NCBI RefSeq assembly: GCF_013201035.1
Contig: NZ_CP053707.1
Location: forward strand, 1,426,001 to 1,490,000
Reading direction: 5' to 3'
DNA: 64,000 nucleotides
Source: Arthrobacter sp. NEB 688
Lineage (GTDB): Bacteria > Actinomycetota > Actinomycetes > Actinomycetales > Dermatophilaceae
Program-made: the position numbers and the translations under genes
The notes under the pieces: model-generated
Told to the model about the DNA's origin: nothing
Databases searched by the model: none
The model's input: only the letters and a program-made list of their open reading frames with translations
Shown here: piece by piece, positions 252 through 64,000 of the stretch
How the letters are laid out: the number at the start of each line of letters is the position of its first letter
How positions within the stretch are numbered: position 1 is the stretch's first letter

Positions 252-275
252 CCCGCCCGGATAGGGCGCCGGAGC

Positions 276-489
276 GTGCACGAACTGACGGATGTGTCGA
301 TTCCTGCACACCCCCTGACGGCTGACCGTGCATCAATCGTCGAAAGCGACGATTGATGCACGCCCGGGTGCTCCGGGTGCTGGAGGGGTGCGTGCACGAA
401 TCGTCGAAAGCGTCGACTGATGCACGCCCGGGTGCTCCGGGTGCTGGAGAGGTGCGTGCACGAATCGTCGAAAGCGACGATTGATGCAC
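276..489. repeat. Family 1 hairpin repeats, cluster A (4 copies)
   Basis: Four 34-bp units lie at 276-309, 328-361, 392-425 and 456-489. The copy at 328 is a perfect hairpin: arms GTGCATCAATCGTCG and CGACGATTGATGCAC around an AAAG loop. The last three copies are exactly 64 bp apart, with near-identical 30-bp spacers. The first copy is degenerate and matches the second subtype seen in cluster C. The cluster fills the gap between two convergent genes. Related clusters lie at 17655-17812 and 59155-59470. The spacers are repeated too, so this is not a CRISPR array. Confidence 0.9.
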
Positions 490-521
490 GCCCGGGTGAC
501 CGGTCCGGAGCGTGCCGGCGG

Positions 522-1709
522 CTACTTGTCGACGTCGCCGACGACGAAGAACATCGAGCCGAGCACGGCGACCATGTCGGCGACGAGGCAGCCGGGCAGC
601 ACCTCGGTCAACACCTGGACGTTGTTGAACGACGCCGAGCGCAGCTTGAGTCGCCACGGCGTCTTCTCGCCGCGCGAGACGAGGTGGTACCCGTTGAGCC
701 CCAACGGGTTCTCGGTCGCGGTGTAGCGCTCGCCCTCGGGCACCTTGAGCACCTTCGGCAGCCGCTGGTTGACCGGCCCGGGGGGCAGCGTCCGCAGGCG
801 GTCCAGGCAGGCGTCGGCGAGGTCGAGGCTGACGTGCACCTGCTCGAGCAGAACCTCTAGCCGGGCGAGGCAGTCGCCCTCGGTGCGGGTGACGACGCGG
901 CCGGGGCCGCCGGGGCCGAAGAGCTCGGCGTACGCGAGGTACGGGTCGTCGCGCCGCAGGTCGAGGTCGACACCGCTGGCGCGGGCGATCGGGCCGGAGA
1001 CGCCGTACGCGAGGACCGTCGCGGGGTCGAGCACCCCGACGCCGCGGGTGCGGGCGAGGAGGATCTCGTTGCCGACGAGCAGCGACTCGAGCTCGGGCAG
1101 GCGGCGGCGCACGGCATCCACGGCGTCGCCGACCCGCCCGAGCCACCCCGCGGGCACGTCCTCCTTGAGGCCGCCGACGCGGTTGAACATGTAGTGCATC
1201 CGGCCGCCGGAGGCCTCCTCCATGACGGCCTGCAGCTCCTCGCGCTCGCGGAACGCGTAGAACACCGGCGTGATGGCGCCGAGCTCCAGGGGGTAGGAGC
1301 CGAGGAACATCAGGTGGTTGAGCACCCGGTTGAGCTCGGCGAGGAGCGTGCGGAGCCAGACGGCGCGCTCGGGCACCTCCATCCCGAGCATCGCCTCGAC
1401 GCCGAGCACGACTCCGAGCTCGTTGGAGAAGGCCGAGAGCCAGTCGTGGCGGTTGGCGAGGACGGTGATCTGCCGGTAGTCGCGCACCTCGAAGAGCTTC
1501 TCGGCGCCCCGGTGCATGTAGCCGACGACCGGTTCGGCGGCGACGATGCGCTCGCCGTCGAGGACGACCTTGAGCCGGAGCACGCCGTGCGTCGCCGGGT
1601 GCTGCGGGCCGATGTTGAGGACCATGTCGGCCGTGGCGAGCCCGCCGGCCCCGACGGCGACGTCGAGGGCACGGGGCGCGTGCGGCTCGGTGGGGGCGTC
1701 GTGGCTCAC
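522..1709 (-). CDS. nuoD2: NADH-quinone oxidoreductase subunit D paralogue (stand-alone)
   Basis: A 395-residue protein of the 49-kDa/NuoD family, the quinone-site subunit of complex I. Near the N-terminus it has the family motif [12 protein letters not shown] (about residues 34-45) and the family C-terminus ending GDVDK, so it looks full length. The GTG start at 1709 gives a protein that begins a little before the conserved block. It is distinct from the nuoD in the nuo operon at 63661: at the conserved His-x-Gly site it reads MHRGAEK (His66, Arg67), whereas the operon copy reads LHTGIEK. It lies 29 bp downstream of a MidA/NDUFAF7-type methyltransferase on the same strand, so the two are probably co-transcribed. 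Complex I-like or other quinone/hydrogenase-type use is possible; function is inferred from family only. Confidence 0.88.
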
Positions 1710-1738
1710 GCGGCCAGTCTGCCGCACGGCCCGCGAGG

Positions 1739-2698
1739 TCACCCGGGGCGCACGCGGGCGAGGACCCAGCGGAACCCGCCGAGGCCGGCCGGGTCGGTGA
1801 GCGCGGTGAGCGCCGAGGTGTCCGCCAGCGCCGCGAGGTAGCCCGCGGGGTCGGTACGGGCGAGGGCGTGGTCGGGCAGGCCGGTGCGGCCGAGCAGCCG
1901 GTGCAGGGCCTCGCGCTGCGTCGTCAGCTCGTCGTGCCGCAGCGAGTCGACGGCGACGTGGGCGGTGAGGTCGCGGGAGCCGTCGGGCAGCGGGTCGACG
2001 ACGACGCCCTCGCGGTAGGCCACGAGCGTCCCGCCGACCGGGTGCTCCTCCCGGGTGTGGCCGTAGTCGACGGCGAGCACGGTGCCCCGGCGCACGCGCC
2101 CGAGGAGGGACTCCCAGGCGCGGTCGCGCGCGAGGCCGACCTCGACGCGGGAGCCGGCCGGCAGGCCGTCCGCGGGCCGGTGCGCGGCGCACCAGGCGGC
2201 GTCGTCGGGGCCGAGCGGCCCCCCGAGCGACTCCTCGCCGGTGGCGGGGTCGACGAGGACGGTGCGCAGGCGCCCGTCCGTGTCGACCTCGGCCACGGTG
2301 CAGGGCACGACGTCGAGCCACTCGTGGGCCACGACGAGCACGTCGTCGAGGTCGGTGAGCGCGTCGGGGAGGCCCGGGCCGCCGGGGGAGGGCATCCAGC
2401 GGACGTCGTCCGGCAGGCCTTGCGGTCGCTCCACGACGTCGACCCCGGTGAGCCGCAGGGCGGGACGCTCGGCCCGCAGCGCCGTGAGGAGCTCGCCGCG
2501 GCCGGCGCCGACGTCGACGACGTGGGTGGCACCTTCCTCGTCGGCGAGGCGCGCGAGGGCGCGGGCGAGGTGTGCCCCGAGGCCACCGTGGGAGGAGGTG
2601 GTGAAGTGCCCGGCCGGTCCCTCGGGGCGGCGGTAGAACCCGTCGGGGCCGTAGAGGGCGTGCTGCCACGCCTCGCGCCAGGGCAGCGGGTCGCTCAC
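1739..2698 (-). CDS. SAM-dependent methyltransferase, MidA/NDUFAF7 (COG1565) family
   Basis: 319 residues with a GTG start. Motifs expected of the COG1565/DUF185 family are present: YGPDGFY near residues 16-22, HFTTSSHGG near 31-39, the SAM-binding loop VDVGAGRGE near 61-69, and AHEWLDVVP near 125-135. The human member NDUFAF7 dimethylates an arginine of NDUFS2, the NuoD homologue, and is needed for complex I assembly. Here the gene lies directly upstream of a stand-alone NuoD-like gene on the same strand, 29 bp apart, so an arginine methyltransferase acting on that neighbour is the natural guess. The divergent DUF2520 gene starts 65 bp away. Confidence 0.82.
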
Positions 2699-2763: not shown

Positions 2764-3648
2764 GTGGACGGCCTCGAGCACCCAGCCCGGCTCAGCGTCG
2801 GCGTCGTCGGCGCCGGCAAGGTGGGGTCGGTCCTGGGCGCCGCGCTCGTGCGGGCCGGTCACCGCGTCACCGGGGCCTACGCCGTCTCGGACGCCAGCCG
2901 GGAGCGGGCGGCCACGCTGCTGCCCGGGGTGCCCGTGGCCGACGTCCGCACCGTCGTCGAGGGCGCCGAGCTCGTGCTCCTCGCCGTGCCGGACGACGCC
3001 CTCGGCCACCTCGTCCGCGGGCTGTCGGCGACCGGGGCCTGGCAGGCCGGCCAGCTCGTCGTCCACACGAGCGGCCGCCACGGCACGACGGTGCTCGAGC
3101 CGGTGCGCGAGCACCACGCGATGCCGCTCGCCCTCCACCCGGCGATGACGTTCACCGGCACCGCGATGGACCTCCAGCGGCTGGTCGACTGCGCCTTCGG
3201 GGTCACCGCCGACGAGGTGCTGCGGCCGGTCGCCGAGGCCCTCGTCCTCGAGATGGGCGGCACGCCGGTGTGGGTCCCCGAGGAGGACCGGCTGGCCTAC
3301 CACGCGGCGCTCGCCCACGGCGCCAACCACCTCGTCACCCTCACCGCCGAGGCGATGGAGGTGCTGGCGCGCGCCGGGGTGGCGGACCCCCGCGCCGTGC
3401 TCGGCCCGCTCATGCACGCCGCCCTCGACAACGCCCTGCGGATGGGTGACGCGGCGCTCACCGGGCCGGTCGCGCGCGGCGACGTCGGCACCCTCGCGGC
3501 CCACCTGCGCGAGCTCGACCTCGTGGCGCCCGAGGTGCGGCGCACCTACGTCGCCCTCGCGCGCGCCACGGCGCTGCGCGCGCTCGACAGCGGGCGGCTG
3601 TCGCCGACGGCGGCCGAGCCGCTGCTCGGCGTCCTCGGCACCGACTGA
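2764..3648 (+). CDS. Rossmann-like / DUF2520 protein (PanG-type ketopantoate reductase candidate)
   Basis: 294 residues with a GTG start. The N-terminal NAD(P)-binding fold is plain, with [11 protein letters not shown] near residues 12-22, and the helical C-terminal half (from about 135) matches the DUF2520 layout. As I recall, the third class of ketopantoate reductase, PanG, belongs to this Rossmann-like plus DUF2520 family. The gene stands before panC, separated by one secreted-protein gene, which fits the reduction of ketopantoate to pantoate for coenzyme A synthesis. No PanE is seen in the window. The enzymatic role is inferred from family and context. Confidence 0.75.
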
Positions 3649-59135: not shown

Positions 59136-59154
59136 GTCGGGTGTCGGGGCCGGT

Positions 59155-59470
59155 GTGCATCAATCGACACTTTCGTCAGTTGCTGCACGGTCCGGAGCCG
59201 TCGGCGTGCATCATTCGACGCTTTCGACGATTGGTGCACAGCTCGGGCCGGCGCCCGGTGCCGGTCGGCGTGCATCAATCGACACTTTCGTCAGTTCCTG
59301 CACGGTCCGGAGCCGTCGGCGTGCATCGATCGACGCTTTCGACGATTGGTGCACACCTCGGGCCGGCGCCCGGGGCCGGTCGGCGTGCATCAGTCGACAC
59401 TTTCGTCAGTTCCTGCACGGTCGGGGGCCGGTCGGTGTGCATCATTCGACGCTTTCGACGACTGGTGCAC
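59155..59470. repeat. Family 1 hairpin repeats, cluster C (6 copies, 115-bp super-repeat)
   Basis: 34-bp units lie at 59155, 59206, 59270, 59321, 59385 and 59437. Two subtypes alternate: one ends CGTCAGTT then CTGCAC, the other is the symmetric hairpin ending CGACGATTGGTGCAC. Together they form a 115-bp tandem super-unit repeated three times, with steps of 51 and 64 bp. No gene is supported between 58991 and 59500. Confidence 0.9.
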
Positions 59471-59500
59471 GCCCGGCCGCGTCGTCCTTGGCCGCCGGCC

Positions 59501-62194: not shown

Positions 62195-62234
62195 CCACCG
62201 CCCGCACCACCGTCAACACCGCCGAGGAGGCGTG

Positions 62235-62834
62235 ATGGGACTCGAGGAGAAGCTGCCCGCAGGGTTCGTCCTGACGACGCTCGAGAACGTCGTCGGATAC
62301 ATGCGCAAGGCCTCGATCTGGCCGGCGACCTTCGGGCTCGCCTGCTGCGCGATCGAGATGATGGCCGTCGGCACGCCCGACTACGACATCGCCCGCTTCG
62401 GCATGGAGCGGTTCTCGGCCACGCCGCGCCAGGCCGACCTGATGATCGTCGCCGGCCGGGTCAGCCAGAAGATGGCGCCCGTCGTCCGGCAGGTCTACGA
62501 CCAGATGCCCAACCCCAAGTGGGTCATCTCGATGGGCGTCTGCGCGTCCTCGGGCGGCATGTTCAACAACTACGCCATCGTCCAGGGCGTCGACCACGTC
62601 ATCCCGGTCGACATCTACCTGCCGGGCTGCCCGCCGCGCCCCGAGATGCTGCTCAACGCGATCATCGAGCTCCACGAGCAGATCCAGAACAGCAAGCTCG
62701 GCGTCAACCGCGTCGCCGCCGCCCGCGCCGCCGAGGAGGCCGCCCTGCGCGCCACCCCGACCTCGCTCATGGCGCCGACCCACGACCACCTCGCGCACCT
62801 CGCGGCGCCGGCCGGGAAGAACCTCCTCGGATGA
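62235..62834 (+). CDS. nuoB: NADH-quinone oxidoreductase subunit B
   Basis: 199 residues from the ATG at 62235. The ligands of the terminal N2 iron-sulfur cluster are Cys37, Cys38 ([10 protein letters not shown]), Cys103 (MGVCASSGG) and Cys132 (LPGCPPRPE), all present. The C-terminus is extended by about 30 residues compared with E. coli NuoB. It overlaps nuoC by 4 bp. Confidence 0.97.
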
Positions 62835-63661
62835 GCGACGCCCAGGACCCCAAGCACCTCGAGAGCGGCGAGGGCGCCCCGGTGCCCGACAAGGCCCTCG
62901 ACACGGCGGCCACCCGCACCGACGACGACCCGCGCTCGTCCGACACCGCGCAGCACACCGGCGGCGGTCGTGTCGTCGAGCTCGCCGGGGCCGACTCCGA
63001 GCCGGTGCAGATCGGCGAGCGGCGCGGCATGTTCGGCGCGACCCGCGGCCAGGACACGACCGGCTACGGCGGCCTCGTCACCCCGACGCTGCTGCCCGGC
63101 GCCTCGCCGCGCCCCTACGGCGGCTACTACGACGAGGTCGCCGACCTGCTCGGCACCGCCCTCGAGGCCGGCCCCGGTCTCGGTGCGGCGCTCGAGAAGG
63201 TCGTCGTCGACCGCGGCGAGATGACCGTCTTCGTGCGGCGCGAGCACCTCCTCGAGGTCGCCCGCGTCCTGCGCGACCACCCGGGCCTGCGCTTCGAGAT
63301 GTGCATGGGCGCCTCGGGAGTGCACTACCCGGGCGAGACCGGCCGCGAGCTGCACGTCGTGTACCCGCTCCTGTCGATCACGCACGGCAGCCGCCGGATC
63401 CGCCTCGAGGTCACCTGCCCCGACGCCGACGCGCACGTGCCCTCGCTCGTGAGCATCTGGCCGGGCAACGACTGGCACGAGCGCGAGACCTGGGACATGT
63501 TCGGGATCGAGTTCGACGGCCACCCCGCGCTGACCCGCATCCTCATGCCCGACGACTGGCCGGGCCACCCGCAGCGCAAGGACTACCCCCTCGGCGGCAT
63601 CCCCGTCGAGTACAAGGGCGGCACCGTCCCGCCGCCGGACCAGCGGAGGGCGTACAGCTGA
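62831..63661 (+). CDS. nuoC: NADH-quinone oxidoreductase subunit C
   Basis: 276 residues. The NuoC/30-kDa domain occupies about residues 110-255, with [20 protein letters not shown] in parts, [19 protein letters not shown] and KDYPLGG. An N-terminal polar extension of about 80 residues is usual in actinobacteria. It is separate from NuoD, unlike the fused E. coli NuoCD. The stop overlaps the nuoD start by one base. Confidence 0.96.
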
Positions 63662-64000
63662 TGACGACCCACGAGCACGACACCGTCGCCGAGGACCTCA
63701 CGGTCACCGACCCCTACGGCGCATCCGTCGACGACGACACCGAGGGCGCGCGCGTCTTCACCGTCTCCGGCGGCGACTGGAACGACCTCGTCGACGAGGC
63801 CACCGCCCTCCACGAGGAGCGGATCGTCGTCAACATGGGCCCGCAGCACCCGTCGACCCACGGCGTGCTCCGGCTCATCCTCGAGCTCGACGGCGAGACG
63901 GTCACCGAGGCCCGCGCGGGCATCGGCTACCTGCACACCGGCATCGAGAAGAACATGGAGTTCCGCACCTGGACGCAGGGCGTGACGTTCTGCACCCGGA
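63661..64000 (+). CDS. nuoD: NADH-quinone oxidoreductase subunit D (N-terminal part, cut by window edge)
   Basis: The first 113 residues are visible. [14 protein letters not shown] lies near 59-72, and [17 protein letters not shown] near 88-104. This is the quinone-site subunit of complex I in the nuo operon. At the His-x-Gly site it has Thr93 where the stand-alone paralogue at 522-1709 has Arg. An N-terminal polar extension of about 50 residues precedes the conserved part. Confidence 0.95.

Follow-up and report, generated by a model that had tools for sequence, protein, structure and literature searches.

MidA and NuoD2 as a predicted methyltransferase–substrate pair of a second actinobacterial complex I

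The genes nuoD2 and midA lie side by side near the start of a 64,000-nucleotide stretch of DNA (the window; positions 1,426,001–1,490,000 of one 4.08-Mb contig of Arthrobacter sp. NEB 688) and probably belong to a second complex I of ancient origin, Nuo2. Judged from sequence comparison, the methyltransferase MidA would dimethylate arginine 67 (Arg67) of the D subunit NuoD2 and aid docking of NuoD2 onto the B subunit NuoB2, a step that the main complex I of the same cell (Nuo1) would not need. The argument is built on gene families, an arginine/threonine switch between subunits, gene linkage and co-inheritance, all of which are established here from the genomes.

Both genes are encoded on the minus strand, nuoD2 at 522–1709 and midA at 1739–2698, and the intergenic gap of 29 bp (1710–1738) is exactly that of the original prediction, which had drawn attention to a second nuoD directly after a gene of the MidA/NDUFAF7 family. 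NuoD2 has 395 residues (a GTG start was chosen) and matches PF00346 (E 3.4e-69) and three NCBIfam NuoD models (approximately 1e-110 to 1e-113), with one model passing its curated cut-off. The protein is of a short form like FpoD and NdhH, lacking an insert of about 40 residues present in NuoD1; the FpoD profile spans residues 26–394, almost end to end, with a score below its cut-off. NuoD2 possesses three cysteines and no CxxC of the kind found in NiFe hydrogenases, and thus belongs with NuoD and the 49-kDa subunits. The genome yielded no PF00346 genes other than those of NuoD1 and NuoD2. The closest named relative of NuoD2 is that of Phycicoccus jejuensis (98% identity), followed by other Dermatophilaceae-like genera, with 77%–98% identity over 13 named relatives. 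Codon differences from P. jejuensis comprise 64 synonymous and 6 non-synonymous changes, and hence NuoD2 looks to be under selection.

The 319-residue product of midA is a genuine member of the MidA/NDUFAF7 family. It matches PF02636 above the cut-off (E 2.7e-17) and is the sole match to that family in the genome. A profile of 21 MidA sequences finds three matches among PDB sequences: 4f3n (1.4e-73), 1zkd (2.3e-65), and, over the whole protein, the solved NDUFAF7 homologue 5ztz (6.3e-51). The fold predicted from 34 sequences has a mean predicted local distance difference test (pLDDT) score of 96, and its six best PDB matches (4g67, two chains of 1zkd, 4f3n, 5zu0, and 5ztz; E 3.2e-17 to 1.7e-15) are all MidA/COG1565 proteins, with the seventh falling to 1.6e-6. 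The protein contains GAGRG at residues 64–68, which we take to be the S-adenosylmethionine (SAM) motif, as well as E126 and D129, both invariant in the 21 sequences and presumably the conserved E-x-x-D motif of the family; the window protein reads AHEWLDVVP here and most homologues ANE..D..P. Among 14 control genomes, PF02636 is present in three (Caulobacter, Synechococcus, and Haloferax), and no match is found in E. coli or Thermus.

The predicted target, Arg67 of NuoD2 (H-R-G; codon at 1509–1511, minus strand), aligns by phmmer without a gap with residue 64 (H-T-G) of Thermus Nqo4 (chain 4 of 2fug, also 4hea); it also aligns with the arginine of the HRG motif in the 49-kDa subunits of 8ba0, 8b9z, and 8esw. 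In the literature, dimethylated Arg85 of mature NDUFS2 is the counterpart of this Thermus Thr64 (PMC3829151, PMC3750175). The alignment, together with this published equivalence, shows that the original prediction was right in its guess about the methylated position. Dimethylation of this arginine occurs in cow, man, Pichia, and Paracoccus, and E. coli carries the residue unmodified (PMC3750175); Paracoccus therefore shows that at least one bacterium makes the modification. NDUFAF7 is the enzyme that dimethylates the NDUFS2 arginine (PMC3829151). Mutation of this arginine in yeast disrupts cluster N2 (PMC8042128), and suppression of the methyltransferase in human cells impairs complex I assembly (PMC8042128, PMC3829151). 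As had been claimed, the site reads GYMHRGAEK in NuoD2 and GYLHTGIEK in NuoD1 of the main nuo operon (nuoD1, 63661–64000, plus strand, running off the window; threonine codon 93, in H-T-G, at 63937–63939). Since a threonine stands at this position in NuoD1, only the paralogue can be modified there.

The choice of residue at this position is coupled to that of a second subunit. Hameedi et al. describe an arginine on NDUFS2 with a threonine on NDUFS7 in Yarrowia, and a threonine on Nqo4 with Arg83 on Nqo6 in Thermus, the side chains of the two arrangements occupying the same space (PMC8042128). The Arthrobacter genome encodes both states in one cell: NuoD1 (HTG) goes with NuoB1 (AGRVS), and NuoD2 (HRG) with NuoB2 (SGTVT). 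The nuoB1 gene lies in the main operon at 62232–62834 (plus strand), and its arginine codon, 76, at 62457–62459. Across the phylum sample, pairs were counted once per gene copy wherever a NuoD with a readable site had a NuoB at most 5 kb away on its own strand; NuoDs lacking a NuoB in the fetched stretch, and the pairs of the window genome itself, do not enter the count. The resulting 119 operonic pairs from 102 genomes comprise 69 Arg/Thr, 47 Thr/Arg, and 3 Arg/Trp (NuoD/NuoB), and none is Arg/Arg or Thr/Thr. An HRG-type NuoD is thus accompanied by a NuoB threonine in 69/72 pairs and by tryptophan in 3/72, and Arg67 of NuoD2 with the threonine of NuoB2 falls within the switch. The tryptophan pairs represent a third state, seen at L116 (genome G190), L129 (G176), and L130 (G042). 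In the class to which the window belongs, in which D2 and B2 lie apart, the residue is threonine at 10/10 NuoB2 loci and arginine at 17/17 NuoB1 loci, after exclusion of one duplicate piece and two other, low-scoring proteins of the family (Val and Pro). On the NuoD tree, Thr-type and D2-type sequences each make up a single clade (35 and 37 rows, respectively, both with support 100/99). From the rule obeyed by the 119 pairs, NuoD2 should pair with NuoB2, not with NuoB1.

Such a partner is encoded outside the window. In the coordinates of its own genome, a second nuoB is found at 1,521,300, with another nuoA close upstream of it; a further nuoH, at 1,536,497, is surrounded by nuoC2, I2, J2, K2, L2, M2, and N2 (Pfam). 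The nuoC2 gene (PF00329; 1,535,901–1,536,470, locus L011) precedes nuoH2. With NuoD2, all 11 subunits outside the N-module are therefore encoded, in three places: midA-D2, A2-B2, and C2-H2 to N2. L2, M2, and N2 keep charged motifs, with the glutamates and lysines that we take to mark subunits pumping protons; in I2, two 4Fe-4S motifs are intact. PF01512 (NuoF) occurs at four places in the genome, none of which adjoins nuo2 genes, and NuoF1 and NuoG1 queries gave no match in 16 nuo2 loci. Subunits A, B, C, D, and H to N are thus present; NuoE and NuoG were not searched for genome-wide, and other modules may be shared. As its gene complement indicates, NuoD2 is part of a second 11-subunit complex I with no E, F, or G gene beside it, since the genome also encodes A2, B2, C2, and H2 to N2. 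NuoD2 had originally been called stand-alone, which is true of its place on the chromosome and not of its partners, as a second NuoB and nine more nuo2 genes accompany it. Literature searches for the electron donor of Nuo2 gave nothing specific. As regards the four PF01512 places, one is nuoF1 of the main operon; another, at 3,394,010 (L318), is a formate dehydrogenase (FDH)-type set of NuoE, NuoF, and molybdopterin genes beside a formamidase gene; and the two NuoF-like genes at 2,261,931 and 1,069,915 (L319 and L320; PF01512 with NADH_4Fe-4S) adjoin ApbE-family genes.

Distribution across genomes ties MidA to the HRG-type NuoD. Among the sampled Actinomycetota, PF02636 is present in 62/197 genomes and PF00346 in 179/197; the search for NuoD2 covered every one of the 62 genomes with MidA and, of the 135 without it, 63 picked for spread. 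A NuoD of the D2 clade occurs in 53 of the 62 MidA-bearing genomes and another HRG-type NuoD in seven (G002, G018, G029, G033, G042, G171, and G176), so that 60/62 carry some HRG-type NuoD. The 63 MidA-less genomes comprise 17 with a D2-clade NuoD, 23 in which the Thr type is the sole NuoD read, and 23 with another HRG type, a hydrogenase-like, partial, or unread NuoD, no NuoD at all, or (G022) the Thr type together with a broken D2. Several genomes with other HRG-type NuoDs likewise show no MidA. A search of the 63 MidA-less genomes for missed, divergent MidA with the 21-sequence profile, scoring at most the best 33 candidates per genome, gave less than 28 bits, mostly over short SAM-motif stretches, with the exception of pieces in G022. 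In that genome, MidA and D2 fragments lie near each other, at the end of one contig (C1) and the start of the next (C2), both in broken frames, through joint decay or assembly error. The tree of MidA (52 rows) and that of D2 largely group the same families, as expected if the two genes are inherited together. The association proposed in the original prediction therefore holds up, and neither of the two results it had named as contrary, a misplaced Arg67 or MidA as frequent beside the HTG type or without the HRG type, turned up.

Gene order points in the same direction. Of the 53 genomes that carry both MidA and D2, 34 have them on the same contig, and in 31 they lie within 10 kb of each other. 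Where a single contig holds MidA, D2, and D1 (19 genomes), MidA is always closer to D2 than to D1 and never within 10 kb of the HTG-type gene. Ordering by tblastn recovers an unbroken A2-B2-C2-D2-H2-I2-J2-K2-L2-M2-N2 row at 12/16 loci, three of the 16 (L103, L106, and L112) being from MidA-less genomes. In five genomes of other classes, midA is the next same-strand gene after N2 (L087, L088, L089, L090, and L092; the contig of L088 starts at C2, and midA in L087 and L090 was placed by the MidA profile), and at L095 it lies approximately 6.5 kb beyond N2. In family f13 (L080, L237, and L244), as in the class of the window, D2 and midA have both moved away from the other nuo2 genes, yet remain close to each other. 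In 72 of 80 named loci, which are the best out of 548 confirmed and come from Dermatophilaceae, Streptomyces, Streptosporangiaceae, and others, MidA lies at most 8 kb from D2, upstream or convergent; the remaining eight have less than 5 kb of sequence on one side. A control is provided by the neighbours at 56 loci with full flanks (>19 kb): MidA is present at 56, DUF2520 and PanC each at 48, NadB at 36, NadC at 28, and three further neighbours at 1 to 3. The linkage of MidA within the class is only somewhat above that of the nearest neighbours, and the weight of this argument therefore rests on the other classes.

Two further residues of D2 are of note. When the columns of 70 D2 sequences were scanned for association with MidA, residue 69 ranked first, two positions after Arg67 (codon 1503–1505, minus strand; alanine here). 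Phenylalanine stands there in 16/17 MidA-less and 1/53 MidA-bearing D2s (Fisher p 1.1e-13, kinship ignored), one of the two exceptions being G139, whose D2 lies on a 4.8-kb contig that ends before the site where relatives carry midA. Phe69 arose twice on the tree; the two lineages lack MidA, except that G040 keeps it together with Phe69. Four independent pairs differing in MidA show the expected change in two, the opposite in none, and no difference in two (sign test p 0.5). As the contrast test has no power and phenylalanine has changed only twice, the association is a weak lead and does not decide the matter. Residue 90 of NuoD2 aligns with Y87 of Thermus Nqo4, the quinone-binding tyrosine (PMC8042128), and is a tryptophan (Trp90; codon 1440–1442, minus strand) in 70/70 D2s, compared with tyrosine in all of the 25 other HRG-type and 54 Thr-type copies read. 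This uniformity is not a product of how the set was drawn, since the set defined by arginine plus tryptophan is identical to that defined by homology alone (53 + 17 genomes). NuoD2 thus has a tryptophan in place of the conserved quinone-binding tyrosine, a sign that the acceptor site may have changed. An AlphaFold model of this subunit, with a mean pLDDT of 51.5, was not used.

These observations can be joined into a mechanism in which three things are inferred: that Arg67 is methylated, that this matters for assembly, and that NuoD2 pairs with NuoB2. In other classes of the phylum the Nuo2 genes form one cluster, A2-B2-C2-D2-H2-I2-J2-K2-L2-M2-N2-midA, and in this genome they lie in three places. 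MidA would dimethylate Arg67 of newly made NuoD2 before or during docking onto NuoB2, as NDUFAF7 does for NDUFS2, and the dimethylated residue, beside iron-sulphur cluster N2, would help the two subunits to dock. The 11-subunit Nuo2 would then take electrons from a donor through NuoI2 and NuoB2 and pump protons. Nuo1 would solve the same contact with the arginine of NuoB1, and would need no MidA because its arginine is on that subunit and NuoD1 has a threonine. A bolder version, possible though doubtful as a whole, holds that Nuo2 is a distinct enzyme lacking NuoE, NuoF, and NuoG that needs the dimethylarginine made by MidA on D2 and, having lost the quinone tyrosine to Trp90, couples an electron donor to proton pumping by way of an acceptor site that is altered or non-classical; that the pairing of MidA with NuoD was inherited from the base of the Actinomycetota, and either predates the proposed proteobacterial origin or is independent of it; and that Phe69 made methylation dispensable, after which MidA was lost.

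Several observations weigh against the proposal that MidA serves NuoD2. In two of the 62 MidA-bearing genomes (G089 and G196), the Thr-type NuoD alone was seen, and 17/70 D2-bearing genomes are without MidA by both PF02636 and the MidA profile; methylation is therefore probably not universal among D2-bearing genomes. MidA and D2 lie on different contigs in 19/53 genomes, including all 11 of family f7, and family f12 is placed differently in the MidA and D2 trees. The whole neighbourhood is conserved in the class of the window, where linkage alone proves little. The switch itself rests on few evolutionary events, because the Thr type forms one clade and the D2 type another. The MidAs of the class are divergent (branch length 1.2), and the window MidA alone finds only 1zkd in the PDB below E 0.1 (3.5e-8). 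The dedicated modifier–target pair envisaged originally is hence upheld in part: co-occurrence and linkage support it, but MidA is not obligatory for an HRG-type NuoD, as the MidA-less D2 genomes and the unmodified HRG of E. coli, which has no PF02636 protein, both indicate.

It is in this light that MidA might be thought to act on another substrate, protein or not, its place beside nuoD2 being merely old conserved synteny. The MidA-less D2 genomes, the separate contigs, the near-equal conservation of DUF2520 and PanC beside D2 in the class of the window, and the nine MidA-bearing genomes without a D2-clade NuoD (although seven of these have another HRG-type NuoD) all accord with this explanation. 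It is nevertheless unlikely: in other classes the MidA family follows nuoN2 in a different neighbourhood, the proximity of D2 and MidA was kept in f13 and in the class of the window after both had left the other nuo2 genes, and the D2 column best associated with MidA lies two residues from Arg67, a point that becomes weak once kinship is considered.

Improbable to a greater degree is the idea, put forward in the original prediction, of a specialised complex I that swaps its D subunit, with NuoD2 replacing NuoD1 in the main enzyme. The separation of D2 from the other nuo2 genes in this genome would fit such a role, and differential incorporation of the nuo2 antiporter subunits NuoL2 and NuoM2 has been proposed in Streptomyces (PMC3765725, PMC8388888). 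The genome has, however, its own NuoB2; the swap would bring two arginines (Arg67 of D2 and Arg76 of B1) together next to cluster N2, an arrangement that none of the 119 pairs shows; and where relatives have kept the cluster whole, the D2 gene sits between those for C2 and H2. Swapping was accordingly rejected on the strength of the second NuoB and the switch rule, which predicts D2–B2 and not D2–B1. The scatter of the genes over three places, and the relative G022 with both genes in broken frames and D2 at contig ends, could also be taken as signs of a Nuo2 in decay in this lineage, with D2-midA as its remnant. We regard this as very improbable, given the constraint on D2 seen in its codon differences and identities, the presence of all 11 subunits, and the charged and cysteine motifs kept by L2, M2, N2, and I2.

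Beyond the two genes, a divergent DUF2520/Rossmann gene (2764–3648, plus strand) stands beside midA; this is the conserved neighbour used as a control above and lies outside the system. Just downstream of nuoD2, window positions 271–518 hold a row of imperfect palindromes of approximately 37 nt, of the type CGTGCA..TCGTCGAAAGCGACGA..TGCACG, three of which are in a 64-nt tandem register at 327, 391, and 455. Units of related look recur at 59149–59494, and the palindromes look like a family of intergenic hairpins resembling repetitive extragenic palindromic (REP) elements.

If MidA does dimethylate NuoD2, the system bears on the reason for having a dimethylated arginine next to cluster N2 in complex I. 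One cell may hold both solutions, a methylated arginine on NuoD and an unmethylated arginine on NuoB, and would thus contain its own natural control, in organisms that lend themselves to manipulation more readily than mitochondria do. The proposal also suggests a job for a methyltransferase gene present in 62 of the 197 sampled genomes, and draws attention to a second complex I that is widespread and whose quinone site is altered.

Among the closest known systems, mitochondrial NDUFAF7–NDUFS2 (and MidA of Dictyostelium) shares with the pair described here the methyltransferase family, by profile and by fold, and the position of the target arginine. The present pair differs in being bacterial, in being encoded beside its predicted substrate, and in serving, as predicted, only one of two versions of complex I in the cell. 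Complex I of Paracoccus denitrificans likewise has an HRG-type NuoD in a bacterium, and Arg65 of its Nqo4 is dimethylated (PMC3750175); here, by comparison, the HRG type belongs to a second enzyme lacking NuoE, NuoF, and NuoG, with tryptophan in place of the quinone tyrosine. The second complex itself has already been published as nuo2 of Streptomyces (nuoA2, B2, D2, and H2 to N2), without E, F, or G and with nuoD2 off the operon (PMC3765725, PMC8388888). No nuoC2 is listed in the available passages on it, where neither MidA nor the arginine switch nor the tryptophan comes up, and our search, limited to open-licence papers, found no published link of MidA to actinobacterial nuoD2. The best PDB sequence match of NuoD2 is NdhH of cyanobacterial NDH-1 (6hum), which keeps the quinone tyrosine where NuoD2 has tryptophan; neither cyanobacterial NDH-1 nor the F420H2 dehydrogenase, whose FpoD profile covers most of NuoD2, is known to have E, F, and G subunits. 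The intersubunit switch of Thermus and Yarrowia offers the same alternative, arginine on NuoD with threonine on NuoB or the reverse (PMC8042128); there it lies between species, whereas here it lies between paralogous complexes of one cell.

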